64,000 nucleotides of DNA, taken from contig CAJQRD010000040.1 of NCBI GenBank assembly GCA_905480605.1, positions 1 to 64,000 of the forward strand, read 5' to 3'. The stretch is from an uncultured Saprospiraceae bacterium. GTDB taxonomy: Bacteria; Bacteroidota; Bacteroidia; Chitinophagales; Saprospiraceae. Positions within the stretch are counted from its first letter, which is position 1. Every line of letters begins with the position of its first letter. The position numbers were made by a program, and so were the translations under genes. The notes beneath the pieces are model-generated. The model worked only from the letters and a program-made list of their open reading frames with translations. It had not been told where the DNA came from and made no database searches. Positions 29,061-34,823 of this stretch are shown here, in pieces.

Positions 29061-29129
29061 GTCAAGATTAGATTACAAGTTAAATTACAAGACTAGATTA
29101 CAAGATTAGATTACAAGATTAGATTAGAG
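29061..29129 (+). repeat. 13-bp tandem repeat ATTAGATTACAAG
   Basis: About five imperfect units of ATTAGATTACAAG, the last running over the stop codon of the minus-strand serine hydrolase gene (29124-29126). Confidence 0.7.
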
Positions 29130-30272
29130 GCCATACAATATCTCCAAAAAAGCTTCCAGTTTATTTGGCTCTAACCACCTTGTCACAATGACCAAATCTT
29201 TTTCTTGATCAATTACTATATAATTACCTCCGAATCCTGCCGCATAAAATATCTTTTCACTAAATTTTTCCATGTGACGATCACCGGGTTTGTTTAACCA
29301 CCACATATAGCCATAGTTGGAATTGGCTAAAGACGGTTGAGTAGCTTTTTTGATCCAAGAAGAATCTAACAATTGAGTGCCTTCCCATTCTCCATTATTA
29401 AGGAAAAGCAAACCAAATCTTGCTTGATCTTTTGTGCTTATAAACATACCTCCACCTGAATGTCCTCCACCGCTAACTGATTGCATTTGTACGCCATCAA
29501 CATTTACCCAACTGTTATCATATCCGTACCACCGCCATGTTGTACTCGCGCCAATCGGATCTAATATTTTTTCTTTTATTACCATTGGCAAAGGCTTGCG
29601 CCAAACTTGTAACAATGAATAAGCAAGTAAATTAACGCGGACATCATTGTATTCAAAAACTGATCCTGGTTCATTAAACTCACGCATTTTCCAATCGTCA
29701 ATACCACCTTCCTTTGGAGGCCTGTCTGCCCAATCATAACCTCCCCATAATTGACCAGACCAATCTGAAGATTGCGTTAACAAATGATACCATGTTATTT
29801 TCGAATTGTGGCTGCCGCCAAAATAGCCATCCCAAATATGTTGACCAACTGGATCGTTGATGTCTTTAATAAGATTATTTTGAAGAGCCAATCCAGCCAC
29901 GGTTGAAAGATAACTCTTTGTCACGCTAAAGGTCATATCCACTTTCTCAATATCCCCCCATGAAGCAATCAAATAACCTTTATGTAAAATCATACCTGCT
30001 GGGCCACCTCTTTTTTTTGTAGGTCCTAATATTTTGTGGAAAGGTTCATATTCAAAGCCCTTTAGGATGGCTTGTCTCAAATCTTTGGATCCAGAATATT
30101 CATTATCATTCACAAACTGAATGGCTTTGTCAATATTATTTTGATCCCACCCTATTTCTGAGGCTTGCTTTTGAGTCCAATCTGCATTTTGCTTTGGGAA
30201 ATAATATTGGGCTTGAACTGAAAAAGATAAGAAGAGAAAAATGATAAAAGAAGAGATTATTGATGTGTTCAT
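29124..30272 (-). CDS. Secreted serine hydrolase, class C beta-lactamase fold
   Basis: 382 residues. Signal peptide about 1-21 (ending VQAQ). Beta-lactamase/penicillin-binding fold with the SxxK nucleophile motif S116-V-T-K119, a Tyr motif in FEYNDVR, and the HSGGGM segment in place of the third (KTG-like) motif. Members include esterases and D-aminopeptidases; a true beta-lactamase is not implied. Periplasmic. Its start is about 220 bases from the PadR gene, separated by an inverted-repeat pair. Confidence 0.88.
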   Translation of the reverse strand: MNTSIISSFIIFLFLSFSVQAQYYFPKQNADWTQKQASEIGWDQNNIDKAIQFVNDNEYSGSKDLRQAILKGFEYEPFHKILGPTKKRGGPAGMILHKGYLIASWGDIEKVDMTFSVTKSYLSTVAGLALQNNLIKDINDPVGQHIWDGYFGGSHNSKITWYHLLTQSSDWSGQLWGGYDWADRPPKEGGIDDWKMREFNEPGSVFEYNDVRVNLLAYSLLQVWRKPLPMVIKEKILDPIGASTTWRWYGYDNSWVNVDGVQMQSVSGGGHSGGGMFISTKDQARFGLLFLNNGEWEGTQLLDSSWIKKATQPSLANSNYGYMWWLNKPGDRHMEKFSEKIFYAAGFGGNYIVIDQEKDLVIVTRWLEPNKLEAFLEILYGL

Positions 30273-30295
30273 GAATTAAATATACAAAATAAGTT

Positions 30296-30330
30296 ACAAG
30301 AGCCCCGCTCTGACAGAGCGGAGCTCTTGT
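30296..30330. repeat. Hairpin repeat GCTCTGACAGAGC, copy 1
   Basis: ACAAGAGCCCCGCTCT, loop GAC, AGAGCGGAGCTCTTGT: a 16-base stem with one mismatch. The inner part recurs inverted at 30378-30402 and in a diverged form at 44142-44192. No T-run follows, so a terminator role is uncertain. Confidence 0.75.
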
Positions 30331-30377
30331 AATCAAGAACTTCCTCACTCTACATAAACTACTCTTTTTCAACATTT

Positions 30378-30402
30378 TGAGAGCTCCGCTCTGTCAGAGC
30401 TT
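30378..30402. repeat. Hairpin repeat GCTCTGACAGAGC, copy 2 (inverted)
   Basis: GAGAGCTCCGCTCTGTCAGA and following bases are the reverse complement of the core of copy 1, about 50 bases away. The two copies could pair with each other as well as fold singly. Confidence 0.7.
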
Positions 30403-30449
30403 ATCTCTGCCAAAACAAAATTTCATATAACTTACTTAACAATCTTATG

Positions 30450-30479
30450 CATAAAAACTTGATGCATAAGGTTTTTATG
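30450..30479. promoter_or_regulatory. 30-bp palindrome, probable PadR operator
   Basis: Arms CATAAAAAC and GTTTTTATG, 13 of 15 base pairs matching across the centre. It covers the -33 TTG and stops two bases before the -7 box of the PadR promoter. PadR regulators commonly bind such palindromes in their own promoters, so autorepression is a fair inference. Confidence 0.65.
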
Positions 30480-30489
30480 TATATATTTG
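30459..30489 (+). promoter_or_regulatory. Promoter of the PadR array operon
   Basis: TTG (30459-30461), 20 bases, TATATTTG (30482-30489); exact consensus. Transcription would begin about 5-8 bases on, at or next to the ATG at 30495, giving a nearly leaderless mRNA. Confidence 0.7.
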
Positions 30490-30494
30490 AAACT

Positions 30495-30830
30495 ATGAAT
30501 GCAAAACTATTTAGAGGAAGCCTAGATACTATTATTATCAAATTGCTATCAGATCAAAATGAAATGTATGGTTATGAAATCACACAAAGGGTCAAAGAAC
30601 TGACTTCGGGTGAATTTAAAATAACCGAAGGTGCTCTATACCCAGCTTTACATCGATTAGAAGCCAAAGGACTTTTAGAAACATCCAGTCGAAGCATAGG
30701 CAACAGGATCAGAAAATACTATCGGCTCACCGAAAGTGGTGAAACTGAAGTGAGTTCAATTCTTTTTGAGATGGACCAATTTATTCAAACCATGCAATTG
30801 TTGATGAATCCAAAACTAGCCAAATCATGA
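30495..30830 (+). CDS. PadR-family transcriptional regulator
   Basis: 111 residues from the ATG at 30495 (MNAKLFRGSLDTIIIKLLSD), the usual PadR N-terminus. An upstream in-frame ATG at 30447 would put 16 odd residues in front and lies before the promoter boxes, so it is rejected. Winged helix: EMYGYEITQRVKEL, then FKITEGALYPALHRLEAKGL, and the wing RIRKYYRLTESG. The C-terminal helix is the dimerisation arm. The stop overlaps the next start as ATGA. It heads an operon of HAAS-like membrane proteins, a partnership well known for PadR proteins in Firmicutes. Confidence 0.93.
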   Translation: MNAKLFRGSLDTIIIKLLSDQNEMYGYEITQRVKELTSGEFKITEGALYPALHRLEAKGLLETSSRSIGNRIRKYYRLTESGETEVSSILFEMDQFIQTMQLLMNPKLAKS

Positions 30831-31528
30831 ACAACAACCAAGCTCAACTGGATTCAAGTGAAATTCAATTTCTCATGGATTATACTGAGAAGCATAATAT
30901 TGTATACAAAGATGTACAACTTGAGCTTGTAGATCATTTGGCATCTGCTGTTGAAGATATTAGGTCTGAAGACAAAGAGATAACTTTCAACAGAGCACTT
31001 TACGACTATACAGGAACACTTCCTGTAGATTTCTACTATCGCTTTATTGAAAACAAATCAAAAATATTGACAAGCTTTTGGAGAAGAAAATTTGGAAAAT
31101 ATATTCTTAGATTTTTCACTATTCCTAGGTGTTTTGTAACCATTTTAATATTTCTACTCTACTACAGATTATTTTTCATTTTATCGAGTGACCATTACTT
31201 AATGCTTTATGCCATTTCGTTAATAGCAATGCTTTTTTCAATTTTCAAATACCAAAATTACAAACTGAGAAATATAACAAATTATCTCGTTATAGAGACC
31301 TACCGAAATGGCTCATCTCTATTTTTTATCATGTTTTTTTGGATACCTAGTTTTTTTGTTGGCCAAATTTATCAGCATAGTTTAGAAAACAAAACTGGAG
31401 TAATTCTTTATTCTGCAGGCGCTACCGCAATGATAATTTATACATATGCTAGCAGCATTGTTTTCCCAAAAATGCTACAGGATGATTTGAATAAAAAATA
31501 TGCTCACTTAAACATATCATTGGCTTAG
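30827..31528 (+). CDS. HAAS-like membrane protein, array copy 1
   Basis: 233 residues. Soluble helical N-terminal domain (about 1-95) with the array motif YKDVQLELVDHLASAVED at 27-44, then about four membrane helices (100-119, 123-140, 163-182, 190-213) and a short basic tail after FPKMLQDDL. The motif resembles the ExxxHL(x)3-4E helix of HAAS/permease-prefix domains linked to PadR regulators; that link is inference. The start overlaps the padR stop by four bases. Between 85 and 100 residues a second shared segment reads FWRRKFGKYILRFFTIP. Function unknown. Confidence 0.8.
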   Translation: MNNNQAQLDSSEIQFLMDYTEKHNIVYKDVQLELVDHLASAVEDIRSEDKEITFNRALYDYTGTLPVDFYYRFIENKSKILTSFWRRKFGKYILRFFTIPRCFVTILIFLLYYRLFFILSSDHYLMLYAISLIAMLFSIFKYQNYKLRNITNYLVIETYRNGSSLFFIMFFWIPSFFVGQIYQHSLENKTGVILYSAGATAMIIYTYASSIVFPKMLQDDLNKKYAHLNISLA

Positions 31529-31529
31529 C

Positions 31530-32237
31530 ATGAAGAACAAATCAAAAGTACAACTAACAGACAAGCAAGTCAAAGAACTATTTGACTACACAGATCGCAT
31601 GCATATTAAATATAAAGATGTACAATACGAAATTGTAGATCACATTGCCTCTGGAGTTGAAGACACATTGGCTGCTAATAATAAACTGACTTTTAATAAA
31701 GCTTTATATAATTATGCTGGAACTTTACCAATGCGTTTTTTCAATGATTTGATAGAAGAAAAAGAAAAGGCATTAACTCAATTTTGGAATAGAAAATTCG
31801 GAAAGTACTTATTAGGTTTTTTAAATATCCCAAGAATAATTGCATCTGGTCTATTGTACTTTATTTCTTACAACTTAATACCATTTCTAAATTTTGGTGT
31901 GTTCACTACTTTGGTTTTATTCATAATATTTACACTCATAGAATTTGTTGGGTTTCCGGGAGACAAATTAATAGCCGATTTAGATACAGACTATTTGGTA
32001 ATAAAAACATACAACAAAACTATTTTATCATTAGCATTTGGATTCTTTGGAATGAATTTTTACCTAATAGTCTTAGAATTTGATCTATTAATGAGTCAAT
32101 CGTGGGGACTTGCAGTAATCGCTTTTGCAGTAACATCAATTACCTTGTTTTCCTACTCTGTAAGATATGTTTTTCCAAAAATGTTAAAAGCAGAAATTGA
32201 AACAAAATATGCACACCATAATATAAATTTGGCATGA
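31530..32237 (+). CDS. HAAS-like membrane protein, array copy 2
   Basis: 235 residues, closest to copy 1 throughout: YKDVQYEIVDHIASGVED at 28-45, FNKALYNYAGTLPMRFF, FWNRKFGKYLLGFLNIP, and a near-identical end (VFPKMLKAEIETKYAHHNINLA against VFPKMLQDDLNKKYAHLNISLA, compared in short pieces). About four membrane helices. One base separates it from copy 1. The pair looks like a recent tandem duplication. Confidence 0.8.
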   Translation: MKNKSKVQLTDKQVKELFDYTDRMHIKYKDVQYEIVDHIASGVEDTLAANNKLTFNKALYNYAGTLPMRFFNDLIEEKEKALTQFWNRKFGKYLLGFLNIPRIIASGLLYFISYNLIPFLNFGVFTTLVLFIIFTLIEFVGFPGDKLIADLDTDYLVIKTYNKTILSLAFGFFGMNFYLIVLEFDLLMSQSWGLAVIAFAVTSITLFSYSVRYVFPKMLKAEIETKYAHHNINLA

Positions 32238-32926
32238 GCAAGAATTTAACAGCAAATGAAGTTAATGGCTTATACTACTATTTGCAAGCCCATGGCATTC
32301 CATATAAAGATATCCAAAATGAGGTAGTTGATCATTTAGCGACAGGAATAGAAGAAACAACTTTAAAAAATGAAACTGATAGTTTTTCAAAGCAATTGTA
32401 TGATTATATAGATACACTTCCCAATAATTTTTTCAAGGATTTCCTAATCCAAAAAAGAAAAGTGTTGACAAAATTGTGGTGGACCAGATTCAAAGAAGGG
32501 TTTACATTCAATGTAATAATTGTATCTATAATTCTATCTACTGTTATTCATTTATTCATTGAAAACTTAATAGCGAACGGCTTTTTTGTTTATAACTTTT
32601 TTGCTTTTTTAACCCTCCAGATCATTATACAAAGTTTCACCTTTTACTTTGCATATAAAAAAAGTAAAAAAGTAAACGCAGAAAAATATTTATCAATAAT
32701 GCATTACACTTCTGTTACTTCGATAATTTTTTCGATTGTAGTTAATAGTGCCTTAATTTTGATATATATTACATATTCAAAATCACTGAATGCATCTTTT
32801 AGTATTATAACATTGTCCTTATTACTATCTAGCATTTATATCATTGCATTCCATTTCCCCAAAAAACTTGAATCTGACCTCAAAGATATTATTCCTCAAA
32901 TCCAAAAATTGAGCATATTAAAGTAA
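32234..32926 (+). CDS. HAAS-like membrane protein, array copy 3
   Basis: 230 residues. The N-terminal domain keeps YKDIQNEVVDHLATGIEE (24-41) and LYDYIDTLPNNFF, but the membrane half has diverged: about four helices (93-112, 118-140, 160-180, 189-207) with few residues shared with copies 1-2. It ends FPKKLESDLKDIIPQ, keeping the FPxxL end motif. The start overlaps the copy 2 stop as ATGA. The pattern (conserved soluble domain, drifting membrane part) suggests the soluble part binds a common partner. Confidence 0.78.
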   Translation: MSKNLTANEVNGLYYYLQAHGIPYKDIQNEVVDHLATGIEETTLKNETDSFSKQLYDYIDTLPNNFFKDFLIQKRKVLTKLWWTRFKEGFTFNVIIVSIILSTVIHLFIENLIANGFFVYNFFAFLTLQIIIQSFTFYFAYKKSKKVNAEKYLSIMHYTSVTSIIFSIVVNSALILIYITYSKSLNASFSIITLSLLLSSIYIIAFHFPKKLESDLKDIIPQIQKLSILK

Positions 32927-32997
32927 ATGAATTATCAAATGAAGAGGTAAAAAAACTGTTTGCTTTTGTCAGAAGTAAATATGTTTATTTCATAGAT

Positions 32998-33594
32998 GTG
33001 CAGCACGAATTGGTTGATCATTTGGCTTGTGATATTGAAGAACTACAAGTCAAAGATGAGAATAATAGTTTTGAAAAAGCATACGCTAAATATCCTATTA
33101 CTGGATTTACCAATCTGAAAGACGCTAAGGTCAAAGCAATGAACAAATACTGGGGACGGATCTATTGGCAGTACATTAAGGAGTATTTTACGCTTCCCAA
33201 AGTTTTAATTTCAATTATGCTATTTTGGTCTTATTTCAAATTATTCTCACTTTTTGAAGGCAGAGCTGCGATACCATTTTTCATTTTTGGATTTGTTATT
33301 TCGATTTACAATTCTATTTGGTTACACAAAAAATTTAAGACAAAAGAAAACAACAAATACCTTGTGATAAATTCTTTCATTGGCCTTTTTGGAGGGATTT
33401 ATTTTATACCAATTATGATTGGATCAAATTTTGGCAATGGACTTGCCATGGCAAACTATAGCCTTAATGCCATTGTAGGCTTAACAATTGTCGCCACATA
33501 TATGACACTAATTTCACATGCTTCTTTTTACTATTTTCCAAATAGACTAGAATCAGAATTGAAAAATAAATATCCTTATATCCAATTTCAATAA
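32998..33594 (+). CDS. HAAS-like membrane protein, array copy 4 (start disrupted)
   Basis: From a GTG at 32998 the ORF gives 198 residues beginning inside the array motif (VQHELVDHLACDIEEL). Homology continues upstream in the same frame as LSNEEVKKLFAFVRSKYVYF (32932 onward) but no ATG, GTG or TTG exists before the TGA at 32875. The ATG at 32927, just where a start is expected, is out of frame by one base and stops after seven codons. A one-base loss near 32930 would explain this. Four membrane helices follow, and it ends FPNRLESELKNKYP. It is either a recent pseudogene or read from GTG or a rare start. Confidence 0.65.
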   Translation: MQHELVDHLACDIEELQVKDENNSFEKAYAKYPITGFTNLKDAKVKAMNKYWGRIYWQYIKEYFTLPKVLISIMLFWSYFKLFSLFEGRAAIPFFIFGFVISIYNSIWLHKKFKTKENNKYLVINSFIGLFGGIYFIPIMIGSNFGNGLAMANYSLNAIVGLTIVATYMTLISHASFYYFPNRLESELKNKYPYIQFQ

Positions 33595-33596
33595 CA

Positions 33597-34118
33597 ATGA
33601 AATATTTAAAATTTTACCTGAAATTATTTCTATCATTTGGTATACCCTTCAGTATAATATTGGGTATCGCCAAATATATAGAAACCGTTGCCTTTAATTG
33701 GCAATACATGTTATTCATGGGTATTGGATTTGGCTTACTCATGTCATTATTTTTAGGTACTTTTCACATAACTATGGTCGAAGATGAATTGAAAAAAGGA
33801 AACTATACTGTGTTGAATTTACATAGTCAAAATAAAATCATAGAATGCCATTTGTCCATTGAAGAAATCTATGAACTGCTAAAAGAAAAATATGATTTCA
33901 AGCATATCATCTTAAATAAAAATGAAAATATAATCAAAGCAAAAATTGGTATGTCCATGCAATCGTGGGGTGAAAAAATGGGTATCAGCAAATTGGCTAA
34001 CTCTCAGACAGAATATCAAATCAAAAGCACTCCTTTACTATTTTCAACCTTGGTGGACTTTGGCAAAAACATTAAGAATATCAATCAAGTTATTGAAATT
34101 ATACAGGATGGAAAGTAG
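33597..34118 (+). CDS. Membrane protein of unknown family inside the PadR array
   Basis: 173 residues, unrelated to the array paralogues: two membrane helices near the N-terminus (about 8-26 and 36-58: LSFGIPFSIILGIAKYI; YMLFMGIGFGLLMSLFLG), then a soluble alpha/beta domain (ECHLSIEEIYELLKEKYDFK, ILNKNENIIKAKIGMSMQSW). It lacks the VDHLA motif. Two bases separate it from copy 4, and its 3' end overlaps the start of copy 5 by 11 bases, so it is an integral part of the operon. I do not recognise the family. Confidence 0.7.
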   Translation: MKYLKFYLKLFLSFGIPFSIILGIAKYIETVAFNWQYMLFMGIGFGLLMSLFLGTFHITMVEDELKKGNYTVLNLHSQNKIIECHLSIEEIYELLKEKYDFKHIILNKNENIIKAKIGMSMQSWGEKMGISKLANSQTEYQIKSTPLLFSTLVDFGKNIKNINQVIEIIQDGK

Positions 34119-34823
34119 GATCCTAACTCAAATTAAAATCCGAAAAATCTATCAATTTGTACAACAAAATGGAGTGCCTTACATTGATTTACAACATGAA
34201 CTTGTTGACCATATTGCAGGTGGCATTGAAGCAACATGGACCGTGGATAAAACCAAGACATTTAATCAATGTTTATACGAGAAGTATGATAAATTTAAAT
34301 TTGAAAACGAAAAAAATATCCTGTATCAAACTTCGATAAAATCCTAAAGGAAAGAACTAAAGCACTTGAAAAGTATTGGACTAATAATGTTATTAAGTAT
34401 CTAAAAGAATTCTTTAGACTGCCGCTTATTATAATTACACTTTTACTTTTTGGAGGCATCATACTGGCATTTCAAAATGGGGAAGCAAAACTATTAGGAG
34501 CTTTATTAGCCTTTTCAGTATTATTCATATTATTATTGTCTGGTATTTTTTATTTCAAGTATAAAAAAGAATTCAACGAATATCTCGCTATCAGATCATT
34601 TGTTATGTTTTACTTTAATATACTCTTTATGACTCCTTATTCCTTGATGGCTATAATTCAACCATTTACAAGTCAAGAATTCATAATAAACAATACACCA
34701 GTACATTTAATTTTAAGCGCCTTACTAAGCTTTTGGATAATCATTGTCATTGGGTCAGTTACAACATTTCCCACCATCTTAAAAAGGGATGTTATGAAGC
34801 AGTTGAACATTAGACTTGCTTAA
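34108..34823 (+). pseudogene. HAAS-like membrane protein, array copy 5, frameshifted at an A7 run
   Basis: Starts at the ATG at 34108 (MESRILTQIKIRKIYQFVQQ) with YIDLQHELVDHIAGGIEA and stops at 34347. In the -1 frame, homology resumes at 34317 (YPVSNFDKILKERTKALEKY) and runs to 34823 through about four membrane helices to FPTILKRDVMKQLNIRLA. Joined, it is about 238 residues, the length of the intact copies. The shift lies on seven A (34310-34316), readable as A AAA AAT in zero frame, a classic -1 slippery heptamer. It may be a decayed gene, a homopolymer sequencing error, or programmed -1 frameshifting; I cannot decide from sequence. Confidence 0.7.

Follow-up and report, generated by a model that had tools for sequence, protein, structure and literature searches.

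The DNA analysed here, in the following called the window, is a stretch of 64,000 nt from contig CAJQRD010000040.1 of an uncultured Saprospiraceae bacterium (GenBank assembly GCA_905480605.1). We studied a locus of this window in which the gene of a PadR-type regulator (padR) precedes a same-strand array of related membrane-protein genes (g1 to g5). The regulator matches the Pfam model PF03551 with 82 bits (gathering cut-off 27; E-value 3.1e-23). A preliminary description of this DNA had reported five consecutive paralogues and let the locus start at position 30447. The PadR gene and the same-strand copies with a common motif are indeed present, but the locus consists of four consecutive paralogues, one inserted gene (orfX) and one frame-broken copy (g5). 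The ATG at 30447 lies inside operator-like sites, and the PadR start that is conserved among relatives is found at 30495 (MNAKLFRGSL). Table 1 lists all features.

Table 1. Features of the padR locus (positions within the 64,000-nt window).
Feature	Position	Strand	Remarks
Operator-like site 3, 21-bp palindrome variant	30432..30452	.	10.8 bits, third in the 64-kb window; weakest of the three
Operator-like site 2	30447..30467	.	14.5 bits, second in the window; offset by 15 bp to both site 1 and site 3
Operator-like site 1, ATGCATAAGGTTTTTATGTAT	30462..30482	.	23.4 bits, top site in the window
TATATTTG, possible Bacteroidota-type -7 promoter box	30482..30489	+	sequence reading
padR, 111-aa PadR-type winged-helix regulator	30495..30830	+	Pfam match; start from comparison with relatives
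g1, 233-aa paralogue, N-domain and membrane part	30827..31528	+	4-nt overlap with padR
g2, 235-aa paralogue	31530..32237	+	AlphaFold2 predicted local distance difference test (pLDDT) 90.3, predicted template modelling score (pTM) 0.85
g3, 230-aa paralogue	32234..32926	+	4-nt overlap with g2
g4, ~221-aa paralogue, open frame from ~32929	32927..33594	+	no standard start before 32998
orfX, 173-aa non-paralogue with about two membrane helices, inserted in the array	33597..34118	+	
g5, broken paralogue	34108..34823	+	N-part 34108-34347; C-part in other frame to 34823

All five window copies share one N-terminal motif and carry FPxxL near the C-terminal end (FPKML in g1 and g2, FPKKL in g3, FPNRL in g4, FPTIL in g5), just as described before. 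The junctions are tight: beside the two overlaps given in Table 1 (padR/g1 and g2/g3), g1 and g2 are 1 nt apart. The AlphaFold2 model of g2 shows three short helices and a long fourth one, followed by the membrane part, in which some four long helices are bundled, in line with the about four membrane helices proposed earlier. We refer to the N-terminal helical part (80-90 aa) as the N-domain. Its helices span residues 11-22/23, 29-49 and 55-63, while the fourth runs towards the membrane; modelled alone, the domain reaches a pLDDT of 88.9 and a pTM of 0.72. The last two paralogues are irregular. No ATG, GTG or TTG precedes 32998 in the frame of g4, coding similarity starts near 32929, and the ATG at 32927 misses this frame by one base. 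The g5 gene switches frame at a run of seven A (34310-34316). Both lesions are either assembly errors in the 125-contig draft or real.

A search of the genome with g2 gives six matches, all of them at the array locus; no copy is found elsewhere. The respective E-values are 1.6e-44 (g1), 1.5e-21 (g3), 9e-17 (g4), 3.4e-7 (N-part of g5) and 0.41 (C-part of g5); a profile recovers the latter with 4.7e-20. None of the window copies has a meaningful Pfam or NCBIfam match. Among related genomes, g2 alone finds matches in 8/60 (own genome counted). A 17-row profile finds them in 45/248 genomes of the family and 32/395 of the phylum, and a 39-row profile of the N-domain in 37/395 of the phylum. All matches of the phylum searches fall into one class, save one weak match each (G588 and G417), which we treat as noise. 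Literature searches, confined to open-licence articles, returned no paper describing the family.

We mapped 68 loci (the window plus batches of 7 and 60), i.e., the stronger matches and some weak ones. The family was found by the first profile in 67 of them, and a fragment without PadR (L134) was left out. Two further loci (L035, L037) are cut upstream by contig ends, which leaves 65 evaluable loci. PadR is adjacent to the family in 62/65, a figure that is valid for the mapped loci only, since 16 weak match places were not fetched (e.g., G185:C509, G139, G203, G183, G145, G184, G376, G665). Within these loci, a same-strand PadR gene lies at most 100 nt upstream in 56. It is found upstream in another four (L138, L140, L131, L156) once account is taken of hidden open reading frames (ORFs), of one pseudogene copy and of one divergent copy, and it lies directly downstream of the family gene in two (L120, L123). 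A second collection of 78 loci places PadR directly upstream in 70, downstream in 1 and about 200-620 nt upstream in 3, with 4 cut by contig ends. Array holders found here include cultivable relatives such as Winogradskyella, Draconibacterium orientale and Membranihabitans maritimus. Here, 18 loci overlap the first set. The remaining 60 have PadR directly upstream in 55 (55/58 evaluable) and about 200-620 nt upstream in 3, with 2 cut. Recurrent PadR linkage is found in both sets, in support of the preliminary description. As judged by comparison of loci, PadR and N-domain are inherited as a pair.

The number of copies per locus varies. In the first set (67 loci), we count 33 loci with one copy, 19 with two, 8 with three, 5 with four and 2 with five; in the second set (78 loci), the respective numbers are 27, 21, 16, 10 and 3, plus one locus with six copies. 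These numbers are minimum values where a contig ends or where the profile misses divergent copies (as in L156). One of the copies in L131 is broken, too. In a tree of 65 members, with many unresolved forks and several long branches, g1-g3 group together (90/97) and g4 groups with a copy from G006 (98/93). Copies of the same genome also pair in four relatives (G005_1,2; G010_1,2; G265_1,2; and, starred, G002_1,3). Multiplication of the copies, as had been suspected, therefore occurred separately in several lineages. Matching copies are kept across species in G165/G236, G197/G105 and G613/G419, so some duplications are older.

Conservation is higher in the N-domain than in the remainder of the protein. 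For all six window pairs, identity is 0.29-0.53 in the N-domain compared to 0.19-0.28 in the membrane part (with g4 taken from 32998 only). The same holds for 97% of the 4560 pairs formed by 96 members, with a mean identity of 0.29 vs. 0.15. This agrees with the earlier notion of a kept soluble domain and a freely varying membrane part, and the variation extends to the replacement of whole modules. Fusions to M23 peptidases, located behind PadR and after one membrane helix, were assigned by profile or motif in six loci (L133, L135, L163, L164, L165, L167). Pfam or NCBIfam back the assignment in at least five loci, and Pfam M23 matches 5/96 members (best E-value 2.6e-36). Two more loci carry the M23 label by reading (L162, the M23 part of which is cut by the contig end) or by reading and motif only (L166). 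All of these M23 loci (L133, L135, L162-L167) come from genomes of the window's own family.

There are other partners as well. Three loci (L308-L310) have the N-domain on MacB_PCD and FtsX in ADOP-family proteins of about 900 aa; window copies have no MacB/FtsX match in Pfam. GldL and GldM are parts of the type IX secretion and gliding motor, and a PadR-linked protein of 416 aa (L311, 4110-5360) combines the N-domain with GldL_N (2.9e-6) and GldM_1st (8.7e-13). A further protein (L313) joins the N-domain to a short GldL-like hairpin (6.3e-5, just below the cut-off). Two more (L314, L316) carry the segment LDDI(I/V)FEFRNKAYGAYDLR, which resembles a segment of the adjoining TonB gene. In all 12/12 loci with other or divergent partners, a same-strand PadR gene is directly upstream. 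Beyond fusions, a DUF5687-type permease and an ABC ATPase, identified by motif, adjoin the array on the same strand in 13/15 Flavobacteriaceae-type loci. The loci concerned are within L138-L150 and L160; L136 and L137 lack the two genes, and the Pfam check covers L139. By this comparison, the rest of the partner protein is exchangeable among membrane and envelope modules. A tandem layout is also seen among permease-prefix proteins: contig C1 of G342 (about 1408600-1414100; L247, L256, L259) encodes three of them (about 870-890 aa) on one strand. PadR stands beside the first only, i.e., the same many-to-one layout.

Upstream of padR we find a 21-bp palindrome, ATACCTAAGnnnCTTAGGTAT, with variants. 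We trained an operator model of width 21 on 60 upstream regions and compared it with 12 Markov nulls, for which 99% of the scores stay within 3.0 bits. The model likelihood is 664 vs. 25-46 in the nulls, and 55/60 training regions score above 3.0 bits. Among held-out regions, 56/57 exceed 3.0 bits and 53 exceed 15 bits, with a single miss (L230). Three regions of training loci (L209 twice, L170 once), all of them misses, were removed from this set (formerly 56/60), which makes the figure look better; of their training counterparts, L123 (of L209) is a miss and L115 (of L170) a match. All 12/12 loci with other or divergent partners are above 3.0 bits (9 above 10 bits, lowest 3.7 and 4.0). The operator is also found for 8/15 PadRs of permease-prefix proteins and for 0/8 PadRs with PspC/HAAS-type partners. 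When 173-nt slices are drawn at random from these loci, 75/3238 score above 3.0 bits, true sites counted in. A null made from reversed sequences (width 20; 309 vs. 285 for the real ones) was discarded as invalid, since a reversed palindrome is still a palindrome.

Multiple sites are common: 38/60 regions hold two or three sites above 8 bits, with spacings clustered at 15 bp (20) and 28-30 bp (16). The three top sites of the window likewise overlap in 15-bp steps before padR. TAnnTTTG is the Bacteroidota-type -7 promoter consensus; within 54 aligned upstream regions, its distance to the start of the operator is 18 nt in 12 cases and 20 nt in 2. The exact operator pattern, which was written with site 1 in view, occurs once in the whole genome, namely at site 1, and a genome search at two mismatches yields 11 and 12 matches vs. 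20 and 13 in a reversed control. Given the uniqueness of the exact site, regulation by PadR is most likely confined to its own operon, i.e., local autoregulation.

The PadR tree fits this partition of partners. PadRs of arrays and M23 fusions share one branch (100/100), apart from those of the permease-prefix and PspC/HAAS types, and the four groups need three label changes, the minimum possible. The window genome itself has two PadR genes according to the Pfam model, the second being on contig C22 (L051).

With regard to the nature of the N-domain, the preliminary description had proposed similarity to HAAS/DUF1700 domains. Profile comparisons do not bear this out. Window copies have no HAAS or DUF1700 match up to E 10 in the Pfam scan, both families are outside the best 25 most-matched families when scanning all 96 members, and a PF22564 search of the window genome (G000) gives nothing at E 0.01. 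HAAS PF22564 was rejected as the domain's family, as hhalign scores only 12.8 (probability <1), within the range of shuffles, against 14 PF22564-type domains, a set of Bacteroidota domains only for which 5 of the 14 source genomes are above the family cut-off. DUF1700 was rejected for lack of a scan match, with Firmicutes DUF1700 sequences being outside the comparison. The GxP motif, which HAAS domains have in helix 3, is present in 14/14 PF22564-type domains, in 1/16 permease-prefix domains and in 4/119 slices of our domain (none from the window); g1-g3 have GTLP, GTLP and DTLP at the respective position. The core of three consecutive helices known from HAAS is present in the N-domain model, which is a non-specific feature.

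What the comparisons do support is a link to permease prefix domain 1. NCBIfam's perm_prefix_1 matches 10/96 members at E ≤0.1 (best 8.9e-5), and among the matches listed the stretch around the EL.DH motif aligns to model positions 13-55. When aligning 119 domain slices with 16 permease-prefix domains, hhalign scores 29.8 (E-value 1.2e-5), compared to at most 15.7 for 100 column shuffles. Three versions of the broad profile yield E-values from 4.3e-6 to 1.9e-5 with probabilities of 77-87. These profile comparisons indicate homology between the N-domain and permease prefix domain 1 (NF038403). Permease-prefix and PF22564-type domains, in turn, score 17.9 with probability 6. Judging from the sections of PMC11237479 considered, permease prefix domain 1 probably belongs to the broader 'HAAS superfamily' of that study, in which FtsX/MacB fusions are listed, so the HAAS analogy would hold one step further out. 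We infer that the array system works like HAAS-PadR, its domain being, by the features tested, not a PF22564 member and having permease prefix domain 1 as its nearest relative.

The likeness to known systems is graded. As in the HAAS-PadR dyad (HAAS, HTH-associated alpha-helical signalling domain), a small N-terminal helical domain sits on membrane proteins whose gene is beside a standalone PadR-like winged helix-turn-helix (wHTH) protein, and the HAAS-PadR partners include multi-transmembrane and FtsX/MacB proteins (PMC11237479). In contrast to that dyad, the array domain lacks a PF22564 match and, mostly, GxP. The HAAS-PadR examples in the sections of PMC11237479 considered include neither tandem arrays nor fusions to M23, GldL/GldM-like or TonB-like parts, and the term 'M23' is absent from its main text.

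PadRs of ADOP permease-prefix proteins, like those of the arrays, lie just upstream on the same strand (15/21 loci with 1500-nt flanks). Profile homology, a similar operator at about half of their loci, and family members on ADOP/MacB-FtsX proteins add to the likeness. Unlike there, the window domain is attached to a four-helix membrane part without FtsX match and scores below the curated cut-off, and the permease-prefix PadRs are on a separate branch. Downstream of the second PadR of the genome (L051), too, lies a gene whose product begins with a helical domain. However, PadRs of this type form a separate clade (100/100) and share the array operator in none of their eight loci. The L051 partner has no PF22564 match at E 0.01; we take it to be of the PspC/HAAS type from its likeness, on reading, to L042-L049, the 'PspC' label being tentative. 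In Listeria, the PadR LltR represses its own operon with an adjoining multi-spanning membrane protein, Lmo0600 (PMC6624303), much as we suppose for the array. In contrast to the window copies, which lack a DUF1700 match, Listeria has one such partner, and it belongs to another phylum.

According to the sections considered, loss of LltR raises the expression of the DUF1700 membrane-protein gene about 118-fold (PMC6624303), and HAAS domains were proposed in 2024 to transduce membrane signals to PadR, the dyad being an alternative to two-component systems (PMC11237479). Based on these precedents, we assume the same logic for the array. With moderate confidence, we suggest that PadR represses its own operon, that the cytoplasmic N-domain relays the state of the envelope to PadR, and that the copies are multiplied sensors or effectors which share the regulator and its operator. 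That is, a PadR dimer would bind the palindromes and repress the operon. The N-domain would be cytoplasmic, i.e., on the same side as PadR, because M23, the MacB periplasmic core and GldM, to which it is fused, act across the membrane; by their established topology, M23, MacB and GldM work on its far side. The membrane part would sense an envelope condition, upon which the N-domain may contact PadR and alter or sequester it, and this change in PadR would reset array expression. Multiplying the membrane partner would provide this lineage with several inputs or effectors for one regulator and operator.

A wider claim is more tentative and, to us, possible rather than probable: arrays may be many-to-one hubs, in which one PadR with a tandem operator serves two to six diverged sensors. 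The N-domain would then define an undescribed Bacteroidia-wide family that plugs any envelope machine (ABC exporters, M23, GldL/GldM-like, TonB-like) into PadR control, as a modular stand-in for two-component systems.

Several observations weigh against the main interpretation, i.e., the PadR-controlled signalling operon. Contact between N-domain and PadR, the signal and the direction of signalling, as well as repression of the operon by PadR, are inferred from sequence comparison. Three loci (L132, L152, L153) carry the family without PadR, the operator is absent in 5/60 training regions (L120, L123, L129, L130, L154), and two of the five window copies (g4, g5) are disrupted. In the PadR tree, support for the array PadRs alone is 67/98, and neither the M23 nor the permease-prefix group is a single clade. 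With regard to the domain, a genus-level profile alone scores only 16.4 against the permease prefix, which is barely above the shuffles and not significant, such that the homology rests on the broad family. Window copies have no perm_prefix_1 match up to E 10, and the best member bit score among the matches listed is 21.1 vs. the curated NF038403 cut-off of 30. Structure comparison gives no significant PDB match for the full-length fold (top matches are long helical bundles) and no significant Foldseek match for the domain alone (VIA Z ≤4.7), which says little on its likeness to solved HAAS-superfamily structures such as 2O3L. The best match of the domain profile to PDB sequences has an E-value of 0.1.

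LmrR-type PadRs bind ligands, and PadR itself could be the sensor here. The array would then hold the repressed targets, i.e., envelope-protective or membrane-active proteins, and the N-domain would serve the assembly or activity of these proteins themselves and would not touch PadR. We consider this less likely. M23, ADOP, GldL/GldM-like and TonB-like parts are as effector-like as they are sensor-like, and the ABC permease and ATPase genes next to the array in most Flavobacteriaceae-type loci fit as well. The de-repressed Lmo0600 of Listeria, too, acts as a harmful effector, as far as the sections of PMC6624303 considered report. Such a scheme, however, leaves unexplained why modules of no common origin retain this one cytoplasmic domain precisely at loci where PadR adjoins, and why this domain is the best-conserved part.

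An array of tandem, fast-diverging membrane proteins for interbacterial immunity or toxin neutralisation appears highly improbable to us. The tandem copies, their lineage-specific duplication and the variable membrane part would suit it, but PadR and operator are constant, single-copy loci are common (33/67), and M23, ADOP and GldL/GldM fusions do not fit. Moreover, PADLOC has no match for g1-g4 or orfX at E 0.1 and gives only weak wHTH matches for PadR. Equally remote is a mis-assembled or functionless, decaying locus, as g1-g3 are intact with tight junctions, arrays of two to six copies recur in many genomes, and operators are conserved, against which stand the lesions of g4 and g5, the 125-contig draft and the broken copy in L131.

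The inserted orfX separates g4 from g5 and is not a paralogue of the array genes. Its relatives were found in 17 other genomes (150 searched in the window's family); in G088, G099, G105 and G177, for which the array contig is also known, they are on other contigs, and the mapped array loci have no such relative among their ORFs. The related genome G002 has an array of three copies at the same site as the window. From reading translations, we take one shared flank to hold the genes for EamA, Prs and RplY, and the opposite flank those for gamma carbonic anhydrase, a TraB-like protein and RlmB. In the window, a gene for a secreted protein of 382 aa (29124-30272), presumably serine-hydrolase/beta-lactamase-like by the same kind of reading, lies between the EamA gene and padR; it is missing from this site in G002. 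Between this gene and padR there are two inverted repeats, at 30294-30332 (19-nt arms, 95%, 1 nt apart) and at 30307-30400 (21-nt arms, 100%, 52 nt apart), possibly a terminator pair or a small mobile repeat.

The reading proposed here provides a family that lacks Pfam and NCBIfam matches with a testable role. So far, the HAAS/permease-prefix idea of an N-terminal domain signalling to PadR rests mainly on gene neighbourhood. The operator-like site, the PadR branches that track their partners, the natural domain swaps and the series of one to six copies make this idea directly testable in cultivable Bacteroidota. The array seems to represent a widespread branch, so far undescribed, of a signalling system that was named only recently. 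It also connects M23 peptidases and GldL/GldM-like proteins with PadR control, which may be relevant to how gliding bacteria maintain their envelope.

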